Source: Paenibacillus polymyxa (GTDB lineage: Bacteria; Bacillota; Bacilli; Paenibacillales; Paenibacillaceae). Taken from it: a DNA stretch of 64,000 nucleotides. The notes beneath the pieces were generated by a model that was not told the origin of the DNA, did no database searches, and worked only from the letters and a program-made list of their open reading frames with translations. The stretch is from NCBI RefSeq assembly GCF_018614975.1, contig NZ_JAGGNR010000003.1, forward strand, positions 62,001 to 126,000, written 5' to 3'. The position numbers and the translations under genes are program-made. This document shows positions 6,988 through 18,862 of the stretch, piece by piece. The stretch's first letter is position 1, and each line of letters opens with the position of its first letter.

Positions 6988-9324
6988 TTATCGCTGCTGC
7001 TCCCGGTACTTGCCAGGAGTTGTTCCTGTGATTTTGCGAAACGTACGGATAAATGCGGTTGGATTGGTATAGTTTAATTTCTCGGCAATCTCCGATATTT
7101 TCAGATTTGTTGTTTGCAGCCAGGTCTTTGCTTTTTCCATACGGTACTCTGCCAGATATTCCGTAAAATTGACACCCGCTTCCTTCTTGAATACCCGACT
7201 TAGATATACAGGATGAAAATTAAGCTCAGCGGCACAGGCTTCCAGCGACAATTCACGATCATAACGTTCCTCGATCAAGCGAATCATGCGTCTCGCAATG
7301 TTCATGTATTGGGATTCTTCCTGCTCTCGCCAGAAACGGATAACAGGCTGGAACAGCCGCTTGCGGAACCAATTGGTCATTTCGTCCAATGTGGACAACT
7401 TCAGCAAATGTGACATGGATGCTTTTTCACCCAGCACTTCAGCCACATCTCCACCTTGCTCCTGCACAAGCTGATATACACGAGACAATAACTGAACCAT
7501 AATGACGGGGTATTCACTGAAATGAAGCTTTTTATCGGCAAGCAGCCCCAAATATTGCGTAAAATACGCGTCAGTCTTTTCTTCATCTCCCTGCTTGAGC
7601 GCAGAGGCCAGTTGATCTTCAATCATGCGTAACTGGGTATACAATGCGGCCTCCACCTGACCACGTGGCTGAATATCCTCGTAATGCAAAATAATACGGC
7701 TGCCCAGACTTACCCGGCCCTTCAGAGCCTCTCGGCTCTCTTGAACCGCTCTTGGCGTATCTCCGATACAAGTGTAGAAACGACTGATGCCGATACTTAC
7801 GGGCAGATTCAGATAGGTCACGACACGTTCGCGAATCCAGTCTGCCTGGGTATGCATCCATTCCTTCAGCTTCACCTCATCCGTCAGTTCGGAGGCAAGT
7901 ACGGTGACCTGAGCATCATCCAGCATGACAGGGGTGAACCGAACTGCCGAAGGAAGGAGCTCACCTACCATATTGTTGACGGCAAACAGCAGCAGATCGC
8001 GATCCTGTTCCTCATATCGGGTCCCTTCCAAGGTATCGATCTGGAGCATGAGTACGCCAAGACTCGCCCACCCTGTCGGGAAATCGTACAATTCTCCCTG
8101 ATATCTGAAATCTTCTTCCGAGATTTTACCTGTCAGCAGTTTGGTCATAAAAAACTCCTGGAGGTGCACATGCTGCCCCTTCATCTGCTCACGCATCGTT
8201 TTCTCCGAGCTGAACAAGGTTGACAATTGCTCCTCAATATAGATAAATTCATCCTGACGGCGTCCTGACGGAACAACTGGGGAATCCAAACCCTTCGTAA
8301 ATTGCAGCAGTCTGGAGATCGGTGAGTACATCCGCCGACTGCCGTATATGGCGACCAATCCCGTTCCACATAACATGACCAGTGTAGCGACACCGGTAAC
8401 CAATGCAATTTTCTGTGACTGGGCCGTGATCTGTCCAAGAGATACAACGGACACGTATAACCAGCCGTTGAGCGGAGATTGCCTATAACTAACCGCTACT
8501 TGGTTATCTTCCACCTCCGCACTGAAGAAACCCTCTGACTGGCCCGTCGTTTGCACCATTTCCTGAATTTCCTTATTCAGCGTGTCATATTTCCCACCCT
8601 GCTGCATATCGTTCAGAAAATACTTCTGTTCCCGATCCAGAACGTACATATCTCCAGAATTCGTATTTCGACTCAAGTAGGTACTCAGTTCCGTATCGGC
8701 GATATCAATCACAAGAAATCCCTTTGGTTTCACATTGGTTGGTATCATCGGAATTTTGAATACCATACTGACCACATTATCCGATGATATAAGAGCAGGT
8801 GCCTGTTCGGGTGTTAGTTCACCCATACCTGCTGACACAGGTACACTTTCTTTCGCTGAACTGGCATTCTGAGTGACCCAGAACAGGCTGTTGGTATAAC
8901 TTAGGTAGGAGCCAATTCGGTCTCGAATGCTGAAATCATCCAATTTGCCAAAAGAACGCATCGAAACAACCCAATCTTCATCCAGATTAACCAGATAGGC
9001 TTGGTCAATATTCGTAACCGCTTGCAAGTTGTTAAAACCGGAGGTCAGATCACGAATCTCCTGAAATTCGCTGCTGTCCAACGGTTTCTTCATCGCTTGG
9101 AGTACCAGAGGCGAATTGACATACTGGATGGATGATAATTGCAGGCTGCGCAGAACTTGTTCTACCCGCATTTGGGTCTGATGCAATATCTGAAGATTGC
9201 TCTCACGCACTTTCTGTTCAATGTCACGTGATGCAATCGTATACGAGACCGAACCAATAACAATGACCGGAAGGGCTCCGAGGATCAGGGTAAAGCAGAG
9301 CAAACGCAGTAAATACTTCGGCAA
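6988..9324 (-). CDS. Membrane-bound AraC-family transcriptional regulator (YtdP/YesS type)
   Basis: Protein of about 778 residues with a transmembrane segment near the N terminus (LLCFTLILGALPVIVIG), an extracytoplasmic Cache-like sensor region of about 270 residues, a second membrane segment near residues 305-327 (VATLVMLCGTGLVAIYG), a cytoplasmic linker and a C-terminal AraC double helix-turn-helix (LSLEACAAELNFHPVYLSRVFKKE, then EIAEKLNYTNPTAFIRTFRK). Such proteins sense sugars outside the cell and activate the neighbouring importer. The start is probably the TTG at 9324: AAGGAGG directly abuts the ATG at 9333, leaving no spacer, while the TTG lies 9 bases downstream. It is upstream of and codirectional with the importer and is the likely regulator of 405-6705. 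Confidence 0.9.
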   Translation of the reverse strand: MPKYLLRLLCFTLILGALPVIVIGSVSYTIASRDIEQKVRESNLQILHQTQMRVEQVLRSLQLSSIQYVNSPLVLQAMKKPLDSSEFQEIRDLTSGFNNLQAVTNIDQAYLVNLDEDWVVSMRSFGKLDDFSIRDRIGSYLSYTNSLFWVTQNASSAKESVPVSAGMGELTPEQAPALISSDNVVSMVFKIPMIPTNVKPKGFLVIDIADTELSTYLSRNTNSGDMYVLDREQKYFLNDMQQGGKYDTLNKEIQEMVQTTGQSEGFFSAEVEDNQVAVSYRQSPLNGWLYVSVVSLGQITAQSQKIALVTGVATLVMLCGTGLVAIYGSRRMYSPISRLLQFTKGLDSPVVPSGRRQDEFIYIEEQLSTLFSSEKTMREQMKGQHVHLQEFFMTKLLTGKISEEDFRYQGELYDFPTGWASLGVLMLQIDTLEGTRYEEQDRDLLLFAVNNMVGELLPSAVRFTPVMLDDAQVTVLASELTDEVKLKEWMHTQADWIRERVVTYLNLPVSIGISRFYTCIGDTPRAVQESREALKGRVSLGSRIILHYEDIQPRGQVEAALYTQLRMIEDQLASALKQGDEEKTDAYFTQYLGLLADKKLHFSEYPVIMVQLLSRVYQLVQEQGGDVAEVLGEKASMSHLLKLSTLDEMTNWFRKRLFQPVIRFWREQEESQYMNIARRMIRLIEERYDRELSLEACAAELNFHPVYLSRVFKKEAGVNFTEYLAEYRMEKAKTWLQTTNLKISEIAEKLNYTNPTAFIRTFRKITGTTPGKYREQQR

Positions 9325-9440
9325 GAAGAGCATCCTCCTTTATACGTATGTTTATTAAAATAAATCGCTTTCATTGGATTATTTTACTATTGTTATTTTA
9401 AAACCCATTCTTATTCAAGTCCACTCATTTATTCTAAAGG

Positions 9441-9470
9441 TTGACTTCAAACCAATTTCCAGTTTATATT
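9441..9470 (+). promoter_or_regulatory. Sigma-A promoter of the leader-peptide/mutS2-like unit
   Basis: TTGACT at 9441-9446 and TATATT at 9465-9470 are 18 bases apart (17 if TTATAT is used). The predicted start near 9477 gives a leader beginning about 29 bases before the small leader ORF. Confidence 0.65.
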
Positions 9471-9505
9471 GATTGCATATTCCTCAATCAAAGGAGAGAT
9501 TTTTA

Positions 9506-9529
9506 ATGTCGGTGAATGTTCTTAACTAA
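9506..9529 (+). CDS. Leader peptide MSVNVLN (7 codons)
   Basis: ATG TCG GTG AAT GTT CTT AAC TAA, preceded by AAAGGAGAG with a 7-base spacer, as good a ribosome site as that of the downstream gene. The peptide is too short to have a function of its own. Its last four codons form the first arm of a long-range inverted repeat, so translation of this ORF must affect folding of the leader RNA. This is the main evidence that it is a regulatory uORF. Confidence 0.65.
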   Translation: MSVNVLN

Positions 9530-9678
9530 CCAAGTTTCATATTCAGGAGTTTGGCCTTTCATTGCGCTTGTGCCCATATGGCATACGTGTATTTCATGAT
9601 GCGCCAGATCCCTGTACTTAGTTAAGAACAGCGGATATCATAAATCGCCTCTGGGATTGTCATTGTCCGGGTCTATTT

Positions 9679-9706
9679 CCGCGCTGAGTTCAGCGCGGAT
9701 TTTTTA
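9679..9706 (+). terminator. First leader terminator before the mutS2-like gene
   Basis: Hairpin CCGCGCTGA/TCAGCGCGG followed by ATTTTTTAA. Outer arms GTCTAT (9671-9676) and ATAGAC (9709-9714) flank it. It lies between the leader peptide and the structural gene, so it would cut transcription unless disrupted. Confidence 0.8.
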
Positions 9707-9745
9707 ATATAGACCTGTAGTGGACTATGCTTTCCCATACGTTTA

Positions 9746-9784
9746 GGGCGGAGAATGACGTTTGTTCATTCTCCGCCCTTTTTG
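9746..9784 (+). terminator. Second leader terminator before the mutS2-like gene
   Basis: Very strong 13-bp hairpin GGGCGGAGAATGA/TCATTCTCCGCCC with a run of T directly behind it, ending about 70 bases before the ATG at 9852. No other coding sequence lies between the promoter and this hairpin except the leader peptide. Confidence 0.85.
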
Positions 9785-9851
9785 CGTTTTCCAGGAATAT
9801 GTTTCAGCGCATCAACTGAAATCCCAATTCCAATTCAAGGAGAGATTACGC

Positions 9852-11855
9852 ATGAATGAAAACACGTTAAACAGTTTGGGCTATCCACAAATTCAAAAAA
9901 ATGTTGCAGACTGCGCCCTGTCTTATCTGGGCAAACGTTATGCGAGAGAACTAAAACCGATGGCAGATGCTCACCTTATTCAGATTCGCCTGGAAGAAAC
10001 AGCAGAAGCGGCTGCGTTGATTCGCTTCGGGGCCAGTATCCCCCTCCCGTCACTCGACGGAATGGAAACCATTATGGATCTGCTTGGCACCGGTTATCTA
10101 TTCAGTGAACGTGACTTCAGTCATCTCGCTCAGTTCCTGCGGAGCTGTGCACAACTCATGAAATACATGGAGGGCAAGTCCGGGGTTGCTCCCACCGTCA
10201 GTCGTTATGCAGCATCCATGATTCTGATCGAACCTTTGCTGAATGAGATCGAGCGCTGTATCCATAGTGGACGAATTCAGGATCAGGCGAGCAAGGAACT
10301 GATTCGAATTCGCAAAAAAATGACGGTCAATGAGGAACGTATGAAACGAAAGCTCGATTCTCTGGTGAGTAAACATCGTTCCATTATGCAGGAGCATGTC
10401 GTCAGTCAACGCGGAGGAAGAACGGTTCTGCCCATTAAGAAAGGGTTCCGTAAACAGGTGAAAGGCAGTGTACTGGATGAATCCGGGAGCGGGCAAACCG
10501 TATATATCGAACCTGTTGAATTAGTAAGTTTACAGATGGAATTGGCCGCTCTACAAGCGGAGGAGTCCCGAGAGGAGATGAGAATTCTCGGTGATTTAAC
10601 CTCCCTGGCCGAATCGTATAATCGTGAAATCGCACTGAACACCGAAACGGTAGGTGTGCTGGATTTTCTGTTTGCCAAAGCCAAATATGCGGCCACCATG
10701 GACGGACGTACCGTTCGAGTCAATACGCAGGGCCACATTAACCTTCAACGTGCACGTCATCCGTTCATGGGTTCTTCCATGGTTCCCCTTGATTTTGCAA
10801 TCGGCAGAACGTACTCGTCGCTCATTATAACGGGCCCGAATACAGGGGGTAAAACGGTCGCACTCAAAACACTTGGTTTGTTAACCCTGATGATGCAATC
10901 CGGTCTGCTTATTCCGGTGGAGGAAGGTGGCGAGATGGCTGTTTATAACGAAGTAGCTGTTGATATTGGTGACGGACAGAGTATGGAACAAGCACTCAGT
11001 ACATTCTCAGCACATATTCGCAATATGATTGGCATACTGGAACAGGCCAATACGTCAACTTTGGTGCTCATTGATGAGATGGCTTCCGGCACAGATCCCG
11101 GTGAAGGCGTCGGACTTTCCATCGCTATGCTGGAGGAACTGCACAGCCGCGGAGCAACCGTTGTGGCGACAACGCATTTTGGTGAGATCAAACATTTTGC
11201 TGCTGCCACGCCAGGATTCGAAAATGCCCGTATGGAATTTGACACCGTTTCTCTCCAGCCACTTTATCGATTGCGTATCGGGGAAGCTGGTGAGAGCTAT
11301 GCTTATTCCATCGCATTAAAGCTGGGCATGCCACAGCGAATTATTGAGCGTTCCAAGTCCCTATCGGATCAAAGTAACTCGAAAGATCGTACATTCGTGT
11401 TCACGTCTCCTCCTTTGGAAACTCCGGTCCTAAAGTCTGATCGTTCCGTTACAGAATCAGTGAGCCCAGCAGAGTTATCCATGCGGAATAAGTGTAAGCA
11501 GTCAAAGGATTCAGTCGGTCTCCACAAAAAGACAACAACCAGAGAGTCGGATTCCCCTGCTCCTGCCAAAACTTTTCGCAAAGGGGATCGGGTGTACGCA
11601 GCCTATCTTAATCAGTCGGGCATCGTCTGTGATGTGGAGGATAGCCGGGGAAATATCGGGGTCATGCTGCGAGGACGCAAAGTCAAAATCCATAAGAAAC
11701 GCCTGACCCTGCATATATCTGCCAATGAGCTTTATCCGGGTGACGATTATGACTTGGACATTGTGCTAGAAACAAAGGAAAATCGTAAGAAACGTAAATT
11801 GATGGGACGCAAACATGTGGAAGGCCTACAGATCGAATTACCGCCTGAAGAATAG
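9852..11855 (+). CDS. MutS2-family ATPase without Smr domain
   Basis: 667-residue protein of the MutS2 branch. It has a helical core and clamp region, then a Walker A motif GPNTGGKT (residues 328-335), a signature region and Walker B LVLIDEMASGTDPGEG (Asp408-Glu409), then a KOW-like segment (GDRVYAAYLNQSGIV) and a basic tail ending VEGLQIELPPEE. Canonical MutS2 is near 785 residues and ends in an Smr nuclease domain; here that domain is absent. B. subtilis MutS2 (RqcU) has been reported to recognise collided ribosomes, so a ribosome-directed role is plausible, supported by the attenuator leader. The ATG at 9852 follows AAGGAGAG; a longer reading from 9762 would start inside the terminator. 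A second, full-length MutS2 probably exists elsewhere. Confidence 0.85.
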   Translation: MNENTLNSLGYPQIQKNVADCALSYLGKRYARELKPMADAHLIQIRLEETAEAAALIRFGASIPLPSLDGMETIMDLLGTGYLFSERDFSHLAQFLRSCAQLMKYMEGKSGVAPTVSRYAASMILIEPLLNEIERCIHSGRIQDQASKELIRIRKKMTVNEERMKRKLDSLVSKHRSIMQEHVVSQRGGRTVLPIKKGFRKQVKGSVLDESGSGQTVYIEPVELVSLQMELAALQAEESREEMRILGDLTSLAESYNREIALNTETVGVLDFLFAKAKYAATMDGRTVRVNTQGHINLQRARHPFMGSSMVPLDFAIGRTYSSLIITGPNTGGKTVALKTLGLLTLMMQSGLLIPVEEGGEMAVYNEVAVDIGDGQSMEQALSTFSAHIRNMIGILEQANTSTLVLIDEMASGTDPGEGVGLSIAMLEELHSRGATVVATTHFGEIKHFAAATPGFENARMEFDTVSLQPLYRLRIGEAGESYAYSIALKLGMPQRIIERSKSLSDQSNSKDRTFVFTSPPLETPVLKSDRSVTESVSPAELSMRNKCKQSKDSVGLHKKTTTRESDSPAPAKTFRKGDRVYAAYLNQSGIVCDVEDSRGNIGVMLRGRKVKIHKKRLTLHISANELYPGDDYDLDIVLETKENRKKRKLMGRKHVEGLQIELPPEE

Positions 11856-11994
11856 CCGATGGGAGAAACAGATGTGGTGAAATGGAAGTCATATATACAC
11901 AGTGAAATCCATAATCACCGGCGTATTTCTGTTATACTGGGACCAGTATGTTCAACTTCAGCTCGTAGCTATTCCACAGGGAGGGAAGAACTGT

Positions 11995-12246
11995 ATGTCT
12001 GCAGAACAAGACGATCAAGAGCACATCCATATAGATGTTCTTGTCTGCCCGTTATGCGGGGAAGCTAATCGCTGTTCGTATGCCGCAGGACATCCTCATT
12101 CGGAATGCTGGTGTAACCGGGCTACTTTCCCCGAAGGTGTATTTGACCGCATTCCGGCAGAGCAGCGCCGAAAATCGTGCATATGTCAACGCTGTTTGGA
12201 CGACTATGCTGATAAACGTCAACCAAAAGAAGAGCCACACAGTTAA
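11995..12246 (+). CDS. Cysteine-rich CWC family small protein
   Basis: 83-residue soluble protein with eight cysteines: CPLC (18, 21), C27, the diagnostic CWC at 38-40, and CICQRC (62, 64, 67). The pattern suggests binding of zinc or another metal. The family is widespread but of unknown function. The ATG at 11995 follows GGGAGGG; an upstream in-frame ATG at 11902 has no ribosome site. It is 139 bases downstream of the MutS2-like gene with no terminator between, so it may be cotranscribed, although a weak -10-like TATACT lies at 11933-11938. Confidence 0.8.
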   Translation: MSAEQDDQEHIHIDVLVCPLCGEANRCSYAAGHPHSECWCNRATFPEGVFDRIPAEQRRKSCICQRCLDDYADKRQPKEEPHS

Positions 12247-12266
12247 CAAACTGTATGGCTCTTCTT
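12227..12266. terminator. Bidirectional terminator between the CWC gene and mtlD
   Basis: Long hairpin with arms AAGAAGAGCCA-ACAGTT and AACTGT-TGGCTCTTCTT, overlapping the last codons of the CWC gene. It serves both convergent transcription units. Confidence 0.8.
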
Positions 12267-12308
12267 CTACTATGCATCATCTATACTATTAACTTACAGC
12301 CATTGCTC

Positions 12309-13454
12309 TTACATTTGGTTATACTGGGCAACAGCCTGTTCAAGCACCGGATGATGCTCATCCATGGACGTATAATGGTGGAGGGTTGCTGTAATTCCCT
12401 TCTCGCGGATCATGTTCTGCAGTTCAACTGCTTCCGGATCATCGGAGACATCAAACTTGCAGGCAGCTGCCATACCCATAGCCAGATAAATCGTATCAGT
12501 TCCATCCGCATATGCCTGAAGGGCCGGGCGAACCAGACGATCATTCGGAGACAACTTGCGCAGCGGGGAACGACCAACACGAGTAACCTCATCGGTAAGA
12601 TACGGGTTGACGAACCGTCCCAATATTTTGACAATATACTGCTCATGCTCGTCAGGATTAAATCCAAAGCGCTTCACCAGAACTTTTCCAGTTTCCTGCA
12701 AAGCACCGTAGACAATCGATTTCACCTTCTCGTCGGCAATAGCCTTCTGAATCGTGTCATACCCGTGCACATTACCGATATATGCTGCAACGCAGTGTCC
12801 TGTATTAACCGTGAACAGCTTCCGTTCGATATACGGCTCCAGATCATCGACATATACAATGCCCTCAACCGGTTTGAATGCAGGAGCCATCTGGGAACGA
12901 TCCACCACCCACTCGTAAAAAGGCTCCACCTGTACATGCAACGGGTCTTCATGATGCTGAATAGGCACAATCCGGTCTACGGCCGAGTCTGGAAAATAGA
13001 CATACTGATCAGCAAGTGAACGTAACTTTTCATCAAGCAGAGCATATACATGCTCTTTCAATTGCGTACTGGCTCCAATTGCGTTCTCGCAAGCAATTAT
13101 GTGAAGAGGGTTTTGAGCAGGACCGGAATTCAGTCTTTTCTCAAGTCCCTTCGCAATACCTGGTGCAATATGTTTTAGCACGCCTACGCCCACCGCGGTT
13201 GTAATCAGATCAGCTTCCACAACGGTTTGGGCAACCGTCTCCAGCTGGGTTCCATCGATAGCATTTACACCTGTCACGGTCTCCTGATCCTGGCTCTCGT
13301 TAGCCAGCTCCACCGTATACTGCCCCCGTTGCTGGAGAGCCGTTACCAAGGTCTGATTCACGTCGGAAAAAATCACCTCATACCCTGCCCGGGAGAGGAT
13401 CAATCCGATAAACCCGCGTCCAATGTTACCTGCGCCAAAGTGGAGGGCCTTCAT
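12309..13454 (-). CDS. mtlD: Mannitol-1-phosphate 5-dehydrogenase
   Basis: 381-residue NAD-dependent enzyme converting mannitol 1-phosphate, made by the PTS, to fructose 6-phosphate. The N-terminal Rossmann motif FGAGNIGRGFIG (residues 6-17) and the family block VNTGHCVAAYIG in the C-terminal domain are intact, and the length is normal. It is the last gene of the mtl operon. Its start codon overlaps the mtlF stop by 4 bases, indicating translational coupling. Confidence 0.97.
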   Translation of the reverse strand: MKALHFGAGNIGRGFIGLILSRAGYEVIFSDVNQTLVTALQQRGQYTVELANESQDQETVTGVNAIDGTQLETVAQTVVEADLITTAVGVGVLKHIAPGIAKGLEKRLNSGPAQNPLHIIACENAIGASTQLKEHVYALLDEKLRSLADQYVYFPDSAVDRIVPIQHHEDPLHVQVEPFYEWVVDRSQMAPAFKPVEGIVYVDDLEPYIERKLFTVNTGHCVAAYIGNVHGYDTIQKAIADEKVKSIVYGALQETGKVLVKRFGFNPDEHEQYIVKILGRFVNPYLTDEVTRVGRSPLRKLSPNDRLVRPALQAYADGTDTIYLAMGMAAACKFDVSDDPEAVELQNMIREKGITATLHHYTSMDEHHPVLEQAVAQYNQM

Positions 13455-18592: not shown

Positions 18593-18644
18593 GAGAGGAG
18601 TAAATGTGTTTATTGGACTATGTTATACCCGCGGATGAATGTAA

Positions 18645-18862
18645 AGGGAGAGATTACCCATGACACCCGATTCGGGATGTACATGAGGTAACGCCGAAGG
18701 AGTAAACCACCGATAAGCGGGGGTGAATCTCTCAGGCAAAAGGACTTTTACGGGACGCAACTCTGGAGAGCATCTATTCGCCCTGTACGGGCGTTATGAT
18801 CACCCAAGGGGAAACCTGCTGCACAATGCCGCGGGGTAACTCTCAGGTACAAGGGACAGAGC
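18645..18862 (+). ncRNA. Tandem glycine riboswitch
   Basis: Two glycine aptamers in series. The first has GGGAGAGATTACCC, the core CGCCGAAGGAGTAAACC and CTCTCAGGCAAAAGGAC. The second starts at CTGGAGAGCATC and has the core CACCCAAGGGGAAACC and ACTCTCAGGTACAAGGGAC. These are the conserved gcvT-motif blocks in the right order and spacing. It precedes gcvT, so glycine would turn on its own degradation. Confidence 0.95.

Follow-up and report, generated by a model that had tools for sequence, protein, structure and literature searches.

A candidate attenuator before a MutS2-like gene

What does a seven-codon reading frame that ends inside an inverted repeat, with two intrinsic terminators behind it, do in front of a gene for a MutS2-like ATPase? 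The question is raised by a 64,000-nt stretch of Paenibacillus polymyxa DNA (NCBI RefSeq assembly GCF_018614975.1, contig NZ_JAGGNR010000003.1, positions 62,001 to 126,000 of the forward strand; hereafter the window), in which this leader and its gene occupy positions 9441-11855 of the plus strand. The best explanation, and one that we hold to be probable, is a ribosome-mediated transcription attenuator that responds to translation inhibitors and controls a rescue factor of the MutS2 family without the Smr domain. The parts of this explanation differ in firmness: the sequence makes an attenuator very probable, a ribosome-targeting drug is its likely signal, and a role of the protein in ribosome rescue or resistance is plausible, with rather less assurance.

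All elements lie on the plus strand. A Shine-Dalgarno sequence (AAGGAGAG, 9491-9498), conserved in an alignment of 24 representative leaders, precedes an upstream open reading frame (uORF) for MSVNVLN (ATG TCG GTG AAT GTT CTT AAC TAA, 9506-9529). Codons 5-8 of the uORF are exactly arm 1 of an anti-antiterminator hairpin (GTTCTTAACTAA, 9518-9529), recognised by folding and by arm-arm pairing in related leaders; arm 2 (TTAGTTAAGAAC) lies at 9618-9629. Pairing computations place the proposed antiterminator strand (TAAGAACAGCGGA) at 9622-9634, complementary to the 5' half of the first of two predicted intrinsic terminators, terminator 1 (T1; 9678-9705, stem 9678-9699 plus T tract) and terminator 2 (9745-9784, stem 9745-9779 plus T tract). 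A ribosome-binding site seen in the sequence (9837-9844) then serves the structural gene (9852-11855, 667 aa), identified by family profile matches and a structure model. Folding of the leader RNA gave -126.1 kcal/mol, against a mean of -77.3 for shuffled sequences (z -9.57, none of 100 shuffles equally stable), with arms 1 and 2 as the outer helix of one large hairpin. A first-pass annotation of this DNA had already listed the promoter, the ribosome site, the seven-codon frame, the perfect 12-bp repeat whose first arm is the end of that frame, both terminators and the MutS2-like gene, and each is found where it had been placed. Absent from it were an inner hairpin with a T-rich stretch, the complementarity between arm 2 and the 5' half of T1, and the presence of the same leader before other genes.

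Alternative pairing and the proposed switch

How could such an arrangement report on translation? Without stress, a ribosome would translate the seven-codon uORF and depart; arm 1 would then pair with arm 2 as an anti-antiterminator, T1 would form, and transcription would end before the gene. A translation inhibitor would stall the ribosome near codon 7 (Asn) and hide arm 1, and the freed arm 2 may pair with the emerging 5' half of T1, letting RNA polymerase continue into the Smr-less MutS2 gene, whose product would probably split or rescue stalled ribosomes.

The complementarity on which this switch would depend involves arm 2 together with the bases following it (AAGAACAGCGGA). Each folded segment began where a ribosome stalled at codon 7 would end and ran to the middle of T1, and at least four expected pairs were required. 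Among 181 leaders examined, T1 was recognised in 171, and the ten without it, three of which were wrong-strand readings, were dropped. Arm 2 paired with the 5' half of T1 in 165 of the 171 with arm 1 hidden, in a single one with arm 1 free, and in 83 with the T1 half shuffled; the corresponding counts for 89 non-redundant leaders were 84, none and 29. The stability of this duplex relative to shuffles had a mean z of -2.0 in the genus, of -2.2 in leaders before homologs of the branched-polyamine synthase BpsA (see below), and of -1.8 in the remaining MutS2 leaders.

Several results of the same computations weigh against the proposed switch, as do two further points, on codon use and on a tetracycline-resistance gene, given in the sections below. 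In the window itself the duplex between arm 2 and T1 (-10.3 kcal/mol) does not stand out from shuffles (z -1.0); across the leaders of other genera its mean z is just -0.94. At equilibrium, complete T1 beats the antiterminator in either state of arm 1, and therefore the switch must act during transcription, kinetically or with help. A counterpart for terminator 2 was sought by eye in a few sequences, and the sole candidate antiterminator was not conserved and was dropped. The strict NusG pause motif TTNTTT, finally, is not enriched in the genus (24 of 71 leaders, 22.8 expected), which leaves it unsupported there as a universal part of the leader. It is enriched in BpsA leaders (21/27, 6.8 expected) and in two sets of other MutS2 leaders (16/29, 7.5 expected; 33/54, 14.2 expected). 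The inner hairpin of the window leader (GTGCC/GGCAT, followed by the T-rich TGTATTT; 9570-9594), recognised by folding and alignment, is a possible RNA polymerase pause site, and where leaders possess a T-rich stretch after this hairpin it lies about 32-37 nt before arm 2.

The first-pass annotation had compared the layout with antibiotic-responsive attenuators, and the comparison holds for two tested systems, as far as the available portions of their descriptions go. For vmlR of Bacillus subtilis, experiments have established antitermination by a stalled ribosome, with a pause hairpin that contains TTATTT (PMC9226507, in the portion available). According to the same text, vmlR likewise has a uORF within an anti-antiterminator hairpin, a pause hairpin and an intrinsic terminator; it differs in its three-codon uORF (MIN), arrest at initiation, ABC-F gene and single terminator, whereas the window leader has seven codons with a conserved VLN, two terminators and an Smr-less MutS2 gene. 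The rli80 leader of hflXr (lmo0762) in Listeria monocytogenes is, in the accessible part of PMC6310831, also a uORF attenuator before a paralog of a ribosome-splitting factor, but its uORF has 14 codons with an RLR motif and its gene belongs to the HflX rather than the MutS2 family. Among the papers listed by searches of open-licence literature, none concerned a MutS2 leader, attenuation or uORF of this kind, and a paper elsewhere is possible.

Conservation of the leader

To what extent is this leader found in other species? The genus set comprised 75 genomes, 71 of them with an ortholog (present as two pieces in G005 and G037), and upstream of all 71 orthologs stand both a uORF of the form MS[VG][NSIY][VI]LN* and arm 2. 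The uORF pattern occurs in 72 of the 75 genomes. In the additional one, G006 (locus L128, reverse strand), Val5 is replaced by Ala in an otherwise intact leader and, by eye, the MutS2-like gene lacks most of its middle, so that here the leader seems to outlive its gene.

For the order, 62 chosen genomes of genus, family and order were searched and the 30 best-scoring orthologs fetched, which come from genera other than this one; each of the 30 is preceded by both arms of the repeat and by the uORF with a ribosome site. The encoded peptides include MLVLVLN, MTGYVLN, MFVGVLNS and MSVMVLNF, and that of L164 terminates with Ile. A class-wide protein search with a cut-off of E<=1e-112, a criterion that takes no account of Smr, matched 97 of 398 genomes, and 62 of these lie outside the order; 40 of the 62 loci were fetched, and 39 have a uORF of seven or eight codons, chosen by eye among candidates with a ribosome site (for example MLGVVLN, MSAVVVLN, MSEVVSA and MSAVGSN), while L244 retains only a three-codon remnant. 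The arms pair at this distance as well, and the outermost groups, which were collected by protein, replace both arms with other complementary pairs. Compared with shuffled arm 1, arm-arm pairing in a set of 40 (39 class loci and one named plasmid locus) had a mean z of -2.5, with 22 of the 40 below -2. Conserved bases in the leader alignment also lie 3' of the uORF stop and 3' of arm 2. Of 167 loci, 166 have at least one terminator after the uORF, and under a strict T-run rule 103 have two or more.

These counts bear on one alternative, in which ordinary terminators happen to lie behind an accidental uORF. The region is intergenic, its upstream neighbour is divergent, and such terminators are common; yet uORF, arms and element order are conserved through the fetched loci of the class, and the whole leader stands before unrelated genes. 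Since the leader is conserved, we regard this alternative as already refuted, its probability being practically nil. The first-pass annotation had itself named a leader comparison across orthologs as a means of refutation, and uORF, arms and at least one terminator came out conserved.

Beyond the chromosomes of these sets, a plasmid-borne short MutS2 with the leader was observed in two named records, Paenibacillus pHD01 (L261) and a Cytobacillus spongiae plasmid (L260); the leader sequence, used to query plasmids at the DNA level, matched one Paenibacillus plasmid, and an exact-pattern leader search of viral contigs gave no match. Rfam yielded no leader match at gathering score and, at E<=1, just two chance-level microRNA matches. 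In L134 (G485), an insertion-sequence-like stretch was seen by eye immediately 3' of T1.

Peptide or RNA constraint

Does selection act on the peptide, on the RNA, or on both? Altogether 303 leaders were gathered, 268 of them distinct, and V-L-N stands at codons 5-7, at a fixed distance from the start, in 247 of the 268; this count is biased, since the search pattern behind many of the leaders includes the VLN codons and in some cases the arms. No such selection affects the genus, order, class and 27-locus BpsA sets, which were gathered through the protein. Codon use among the 247 is nearly uniform (GTT in 246, CTT in 241, AAC in 247), and as codons 5-7 are almost fixed, RNA pairing must contribute. 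This near-invariance is one of the two opposing points announced above: it could reflect RNA pairing and not the peptide. Arms 1 and 2 pair at 12 of 12 positions, G-U allowed, in 157 of the 247 leaders, part of which were collected with an arm pattern, against 1 of 247 when the best match is sought in shuffled downstream sequence. The eighth codon is a stop in 236, Ser in ten and Phe in one; leaders with TCN there have a corresponding change at the partner base of arm 2, a covariation.

A second alternative starts here, namely a general sensor of translation status, in which any slowing on the short uORF, starvation included, would give read-through and no peptide-specific stall would be involved. 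Codons 2-4 vary widely among leaders, outer groups have quite different ends (VVSA or VGSN), and vmlR is induced through a three-codon uORF of which two of three tested variants were equally effective, in the portion of PMC9226507 available, all of which would suit such a sensor. Against this stand the fixed position of V5-L6-N7 in the partly pattern-selected 247 leaders and the synonymous CTG for CTT in six leaders, where Leu is kept despite the altered pairing. We consider a purely general sensor unlikely, though well worth keeping in view. Classical attenuation by amino-acid starvation was considered and rejected, the uORF having no run of one codon. A conserved peptide of the type xxxVLN would be useful for studying context-specific stalling.

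Other genes behind the same leader

If the leader is a switch in its own right, which other genes does it precede? The second class encodes homologs of BpsA, the N4-bis(aminopropyl)spermidine synthase (PDB 5xnc, 6j27), to whose catalytic domain family (PF01861) they belong, their enzymatic activity being putative. A BpsA family search covered 65 genomes, selected in part because they have two leaders, and gave 32 places over the cut-off; among the 27 examined, the uORF precedes the BpsA homolog in 26, the exception being L205. A class-wide search with the leader pattern led to 30 fetched loci, 21 before MutS2-like and nine before BpsA-like genes, and to four further places, three with BpsA and one with a decayed leader. 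Scanning named genomes returned at least 117 stretches, and 80 of these loci divide into 54 MutS2-like, ten BpsA-like, 12 too short to tell, two without a recognisable uORF and two before other genes. The latter two are both from metagenome-assembled Clostridia: in L333 the leader is followed by a GNAT acetyltransferase, and in L357, a Clostridiales genome, the next genes encode a methyltransferase and a transporter of the major facilitator superfamily (MFS) that resembles TetA(P)/Tet(40). A GNAT acetyltransferase behind the leader in L295 is equivocal as a further gene class, as T1 looks decayed there and the gene, which has a ribosome site of its own, starts some 400 nt away.

Several loci combine these genes in arrangements that strand and spacing suggest to be operons. 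Brevibacillus panacihumi has one leader, a short MutS2 and, 75 nt on, BpsA; Virgibacillus salexigens (L360) has the leader, BpsA, AdoMet decarboxylase and an RsgA-like GTPase on one strand; and in L125 (G119) the leader is followed by BpsA, a gene that we take to be FkbH-like, a carrier protein gene and a MutS2-like gene. BpsA-class leaders with downstream genes presumably of the same FkbH-like kind were also observed in L115 (G162) and L126 (G122).

Could the end of the uORF then sense polyamines, or a metabolite of the BpsA pathway, by stalling, with the short MutS2 merely co-regulated? Polyamine-sensing uORFs exist in eukaryotes, and both the leader before 26 of 27 BpsA homologs and the V. 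salexigens order of BpsA, AdoMet decarboxylase and RsgA would fit such a sensor. The window's own genome, however, has no BpsA match, the leader being retained without the pathway; the tetracycline-resistance gene described next would be left unexplained; and the ten Ser and one Phe at codon 8 fit less well with a sensor acting only at termination. We judge polyamine sensing very unlikely. If the drug-responsive reading is true, the leader would link branched polyamines to translation stress, and branched polyamines induced by drugs would be a new response to ribosome inhibitors. In the literature excerpts available such polyamines are known predominantly from thermophiles. The Bacilli carrying leader-linked BpsA homologs are, we assume, non-thermophiles.

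A link to tetracycline resistance

Which drug might be sensed? On a Paraclostridium bifermentans plasmid (L413), a uORF for MRKEVVFN stands upstream of tetA(P), a gene whose tet(P) determinant is reportedly regulated by transcriptional attenuation. By eye, GGTTTATTT lies between the arms GTTTTTAAC and GTTAAAAAT of the L413 leader, which has a CCGTG..CACGG terminator along with another of similar type. The uORF and general layout recur on a P. sordellii plasmid (L415), where, again by eye, arm 2 is degenerate and the first terminator is richer in A/T. These leaders resemble that of the window in having a short uORF, here of eight codons and ending in VVFN*, with TTTATTT downstream and, in L413, both arms and both terminators; their sequence similarity to it is only marginal, and their gene encodes a tetracycline efflux pump. 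A hidden Markov model (HMM) built without tetA(P) from 127 leaders, drawn from a pool of 221 that still contained three wrong-strand rows, matches both tetA(P) leaders starting inside the uORF, with E values of 0.17 and 0.027 against 1.7 for the best of 270 shuffled decoys. By sequence this homology is marginal, the second of the opposing points announced above; it is suggestive rather than proof.

Because a similar leader precedes tetA(P), and leaders precede other translation-related or resistance-like genes, a response to drugs or translation stress is supported. Tetracycline is the best single guess for the inducer, a tentative one. A narrower claim would be that the leader senses drugs of the tetracycline class specifically, the short MutS2 and BpsA forming an intrinsic tetracycline response. 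It draws on the tetA(P) leader of P. bifermentans and its recurrence in P. sordellii, on the HMM matches inside both uORFs, and on the Clostridiales locus with its methyltransferase and MFS protein; but the sequence match is weak, P. sordellii departs in arm 2 and T1, and the MFS protein reaches 440 and 345 bits where the curated models require 750 and 800. The tet(40) gene of a Monoglobus plasmid has no such leader either, which says little as it lies directly behind another tet gene. The tetracycline-specific claim thus seems to us rather doubtful. A broader one, entertained with reserve and slightly less doubtful, is that one attenuator family across Bacilli and some Clostridia may run a drug-induced ribosome-rescue regulon, whose members would be a dedicated short MutS2 that splits drug-stalled ribosomes and leaves the mRNA uncut, BpsA (joined in one species by AdoMet decarboxylase and an RsgA-like GTPase) and tetA(P).

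The Smr-less MutS2 protein

What would the preferred reading, attenuation of a rescue factor, require of the protein? The 667-aa product matches the NCBIfam MutS2 family TIGR01069 with 582 bits over residues 2-510 only, that is, the core and the ATPase, and no Smr domain was matched in any of 25 and of 24 aligned relatives, two sets that both include the window protein. The gene is thus a MutS2 paralog, as the first-pass annotation had it, and, in addition to what that annotation said, one without the Smr nuclease domain. A separate housekeeping MutS2 in the same genome has 36% identity and carries the Smr end. From 38 named-leader loci tried for protein comparison, 36 yielded a full reading frame (636-709 aa), and all 36 proteins are nearer to the window protein than to the housekeeping MutS2. 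They share a basic tail close to ENRKKRKLMGRKHVEGL, with the majority sequence ENRKKRKLM.RKHVEGL. The Walker motifs are conserved, GPNTGGKT being invariant among aligned relatives. No anti-phage defence model matched the protein.

In an AlphaFold2 model (mean pLDDT 79.2), the MutS2 core and ATPase extend to about residue 510; a linker of low confidence follows, and then, at about 580-620, a KOW/SH3-like barrel of five strands, for which a curated SH3 model matches one of 25 and none of 24 relatives. Of the structures determined by experiment, the best match is 7qv3, MutS2 of B. subtilis on collided disomes (TM-score 0.78 by target length), with an integrative YabR-MutS2 model (9a5o) ranking higher. 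Compared with the housekeeping B. subtilis protein (7qv3, 8qpp), the core and ATPase fold and probably the KOW-like barrel are alike, whereas the absence of Smr, the conserved basic tail and the control by a leader set the window protein apart.

In B. subtilis, according to the available part of PMC10897456, cells without MutS2 are hypersensitive to three drugs (chloramphenicol, tetracycline and erythromycin), splitting requires the Walker motifs, and KOW or Smr mutants show only modest erythromycin sensitivity and an intermediate result in a reporter assay. As the Walker motifs are essential and the KOW and Smr mutants mild, a MutS2 without Smr could still split ribosomes. If so, ribosome splitting by a MutS2 paralog would be a drug-inducible function on its own leader switch in many Bacilli, comparable to HflXr in Listeria, and the short MutS2 would join ABC-F and HflXr as a new factor of intrinsic resistance; the system offers a ready-made test of the role of an Smr-less MutS2.

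Promoter, second terminator and neighbouring features

The sigma-A-type promoter, identified by matching hexamers (TTGACT-18-TATATT, 18-nt spacer; 9441-9470), is not above chance in the window taken alone, six promoter-like sites having been found within 8500-12500 against 6.5 expected. A promoter-like pair does precede the uORF in 71/71 genus, 26/30 order, 24/40 class and 23/26 BpsA loci, and control windows had none (0/71 in the genus control).

The upper stem of terminator 2 (9745-9784) contains a motif, AYGRAC..GTTCA, in a pattern picked after the data were seen; it occurs in 51 of the 58 distinct leaders from the genus and in 25 of the 27 before BpsA, in 0/29 leaders of other genera, in 17/52 and 6/39 of further MutS2 sets, and in 6/9 and 14/54 of the rest. 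Directly 3' of the MutS2-like gene lies a gene for a small cysteine-rich CWC protein (PF14375, 11995-12246, plus strand), and a CWC-like reading frame was also seen by eye 3' of the MutS2-like gene in G006. Elsewhere in the window, tandem glycine riboswitch aptamers (Rfam RF00504) are found at 18635-18861 on the plus strand.

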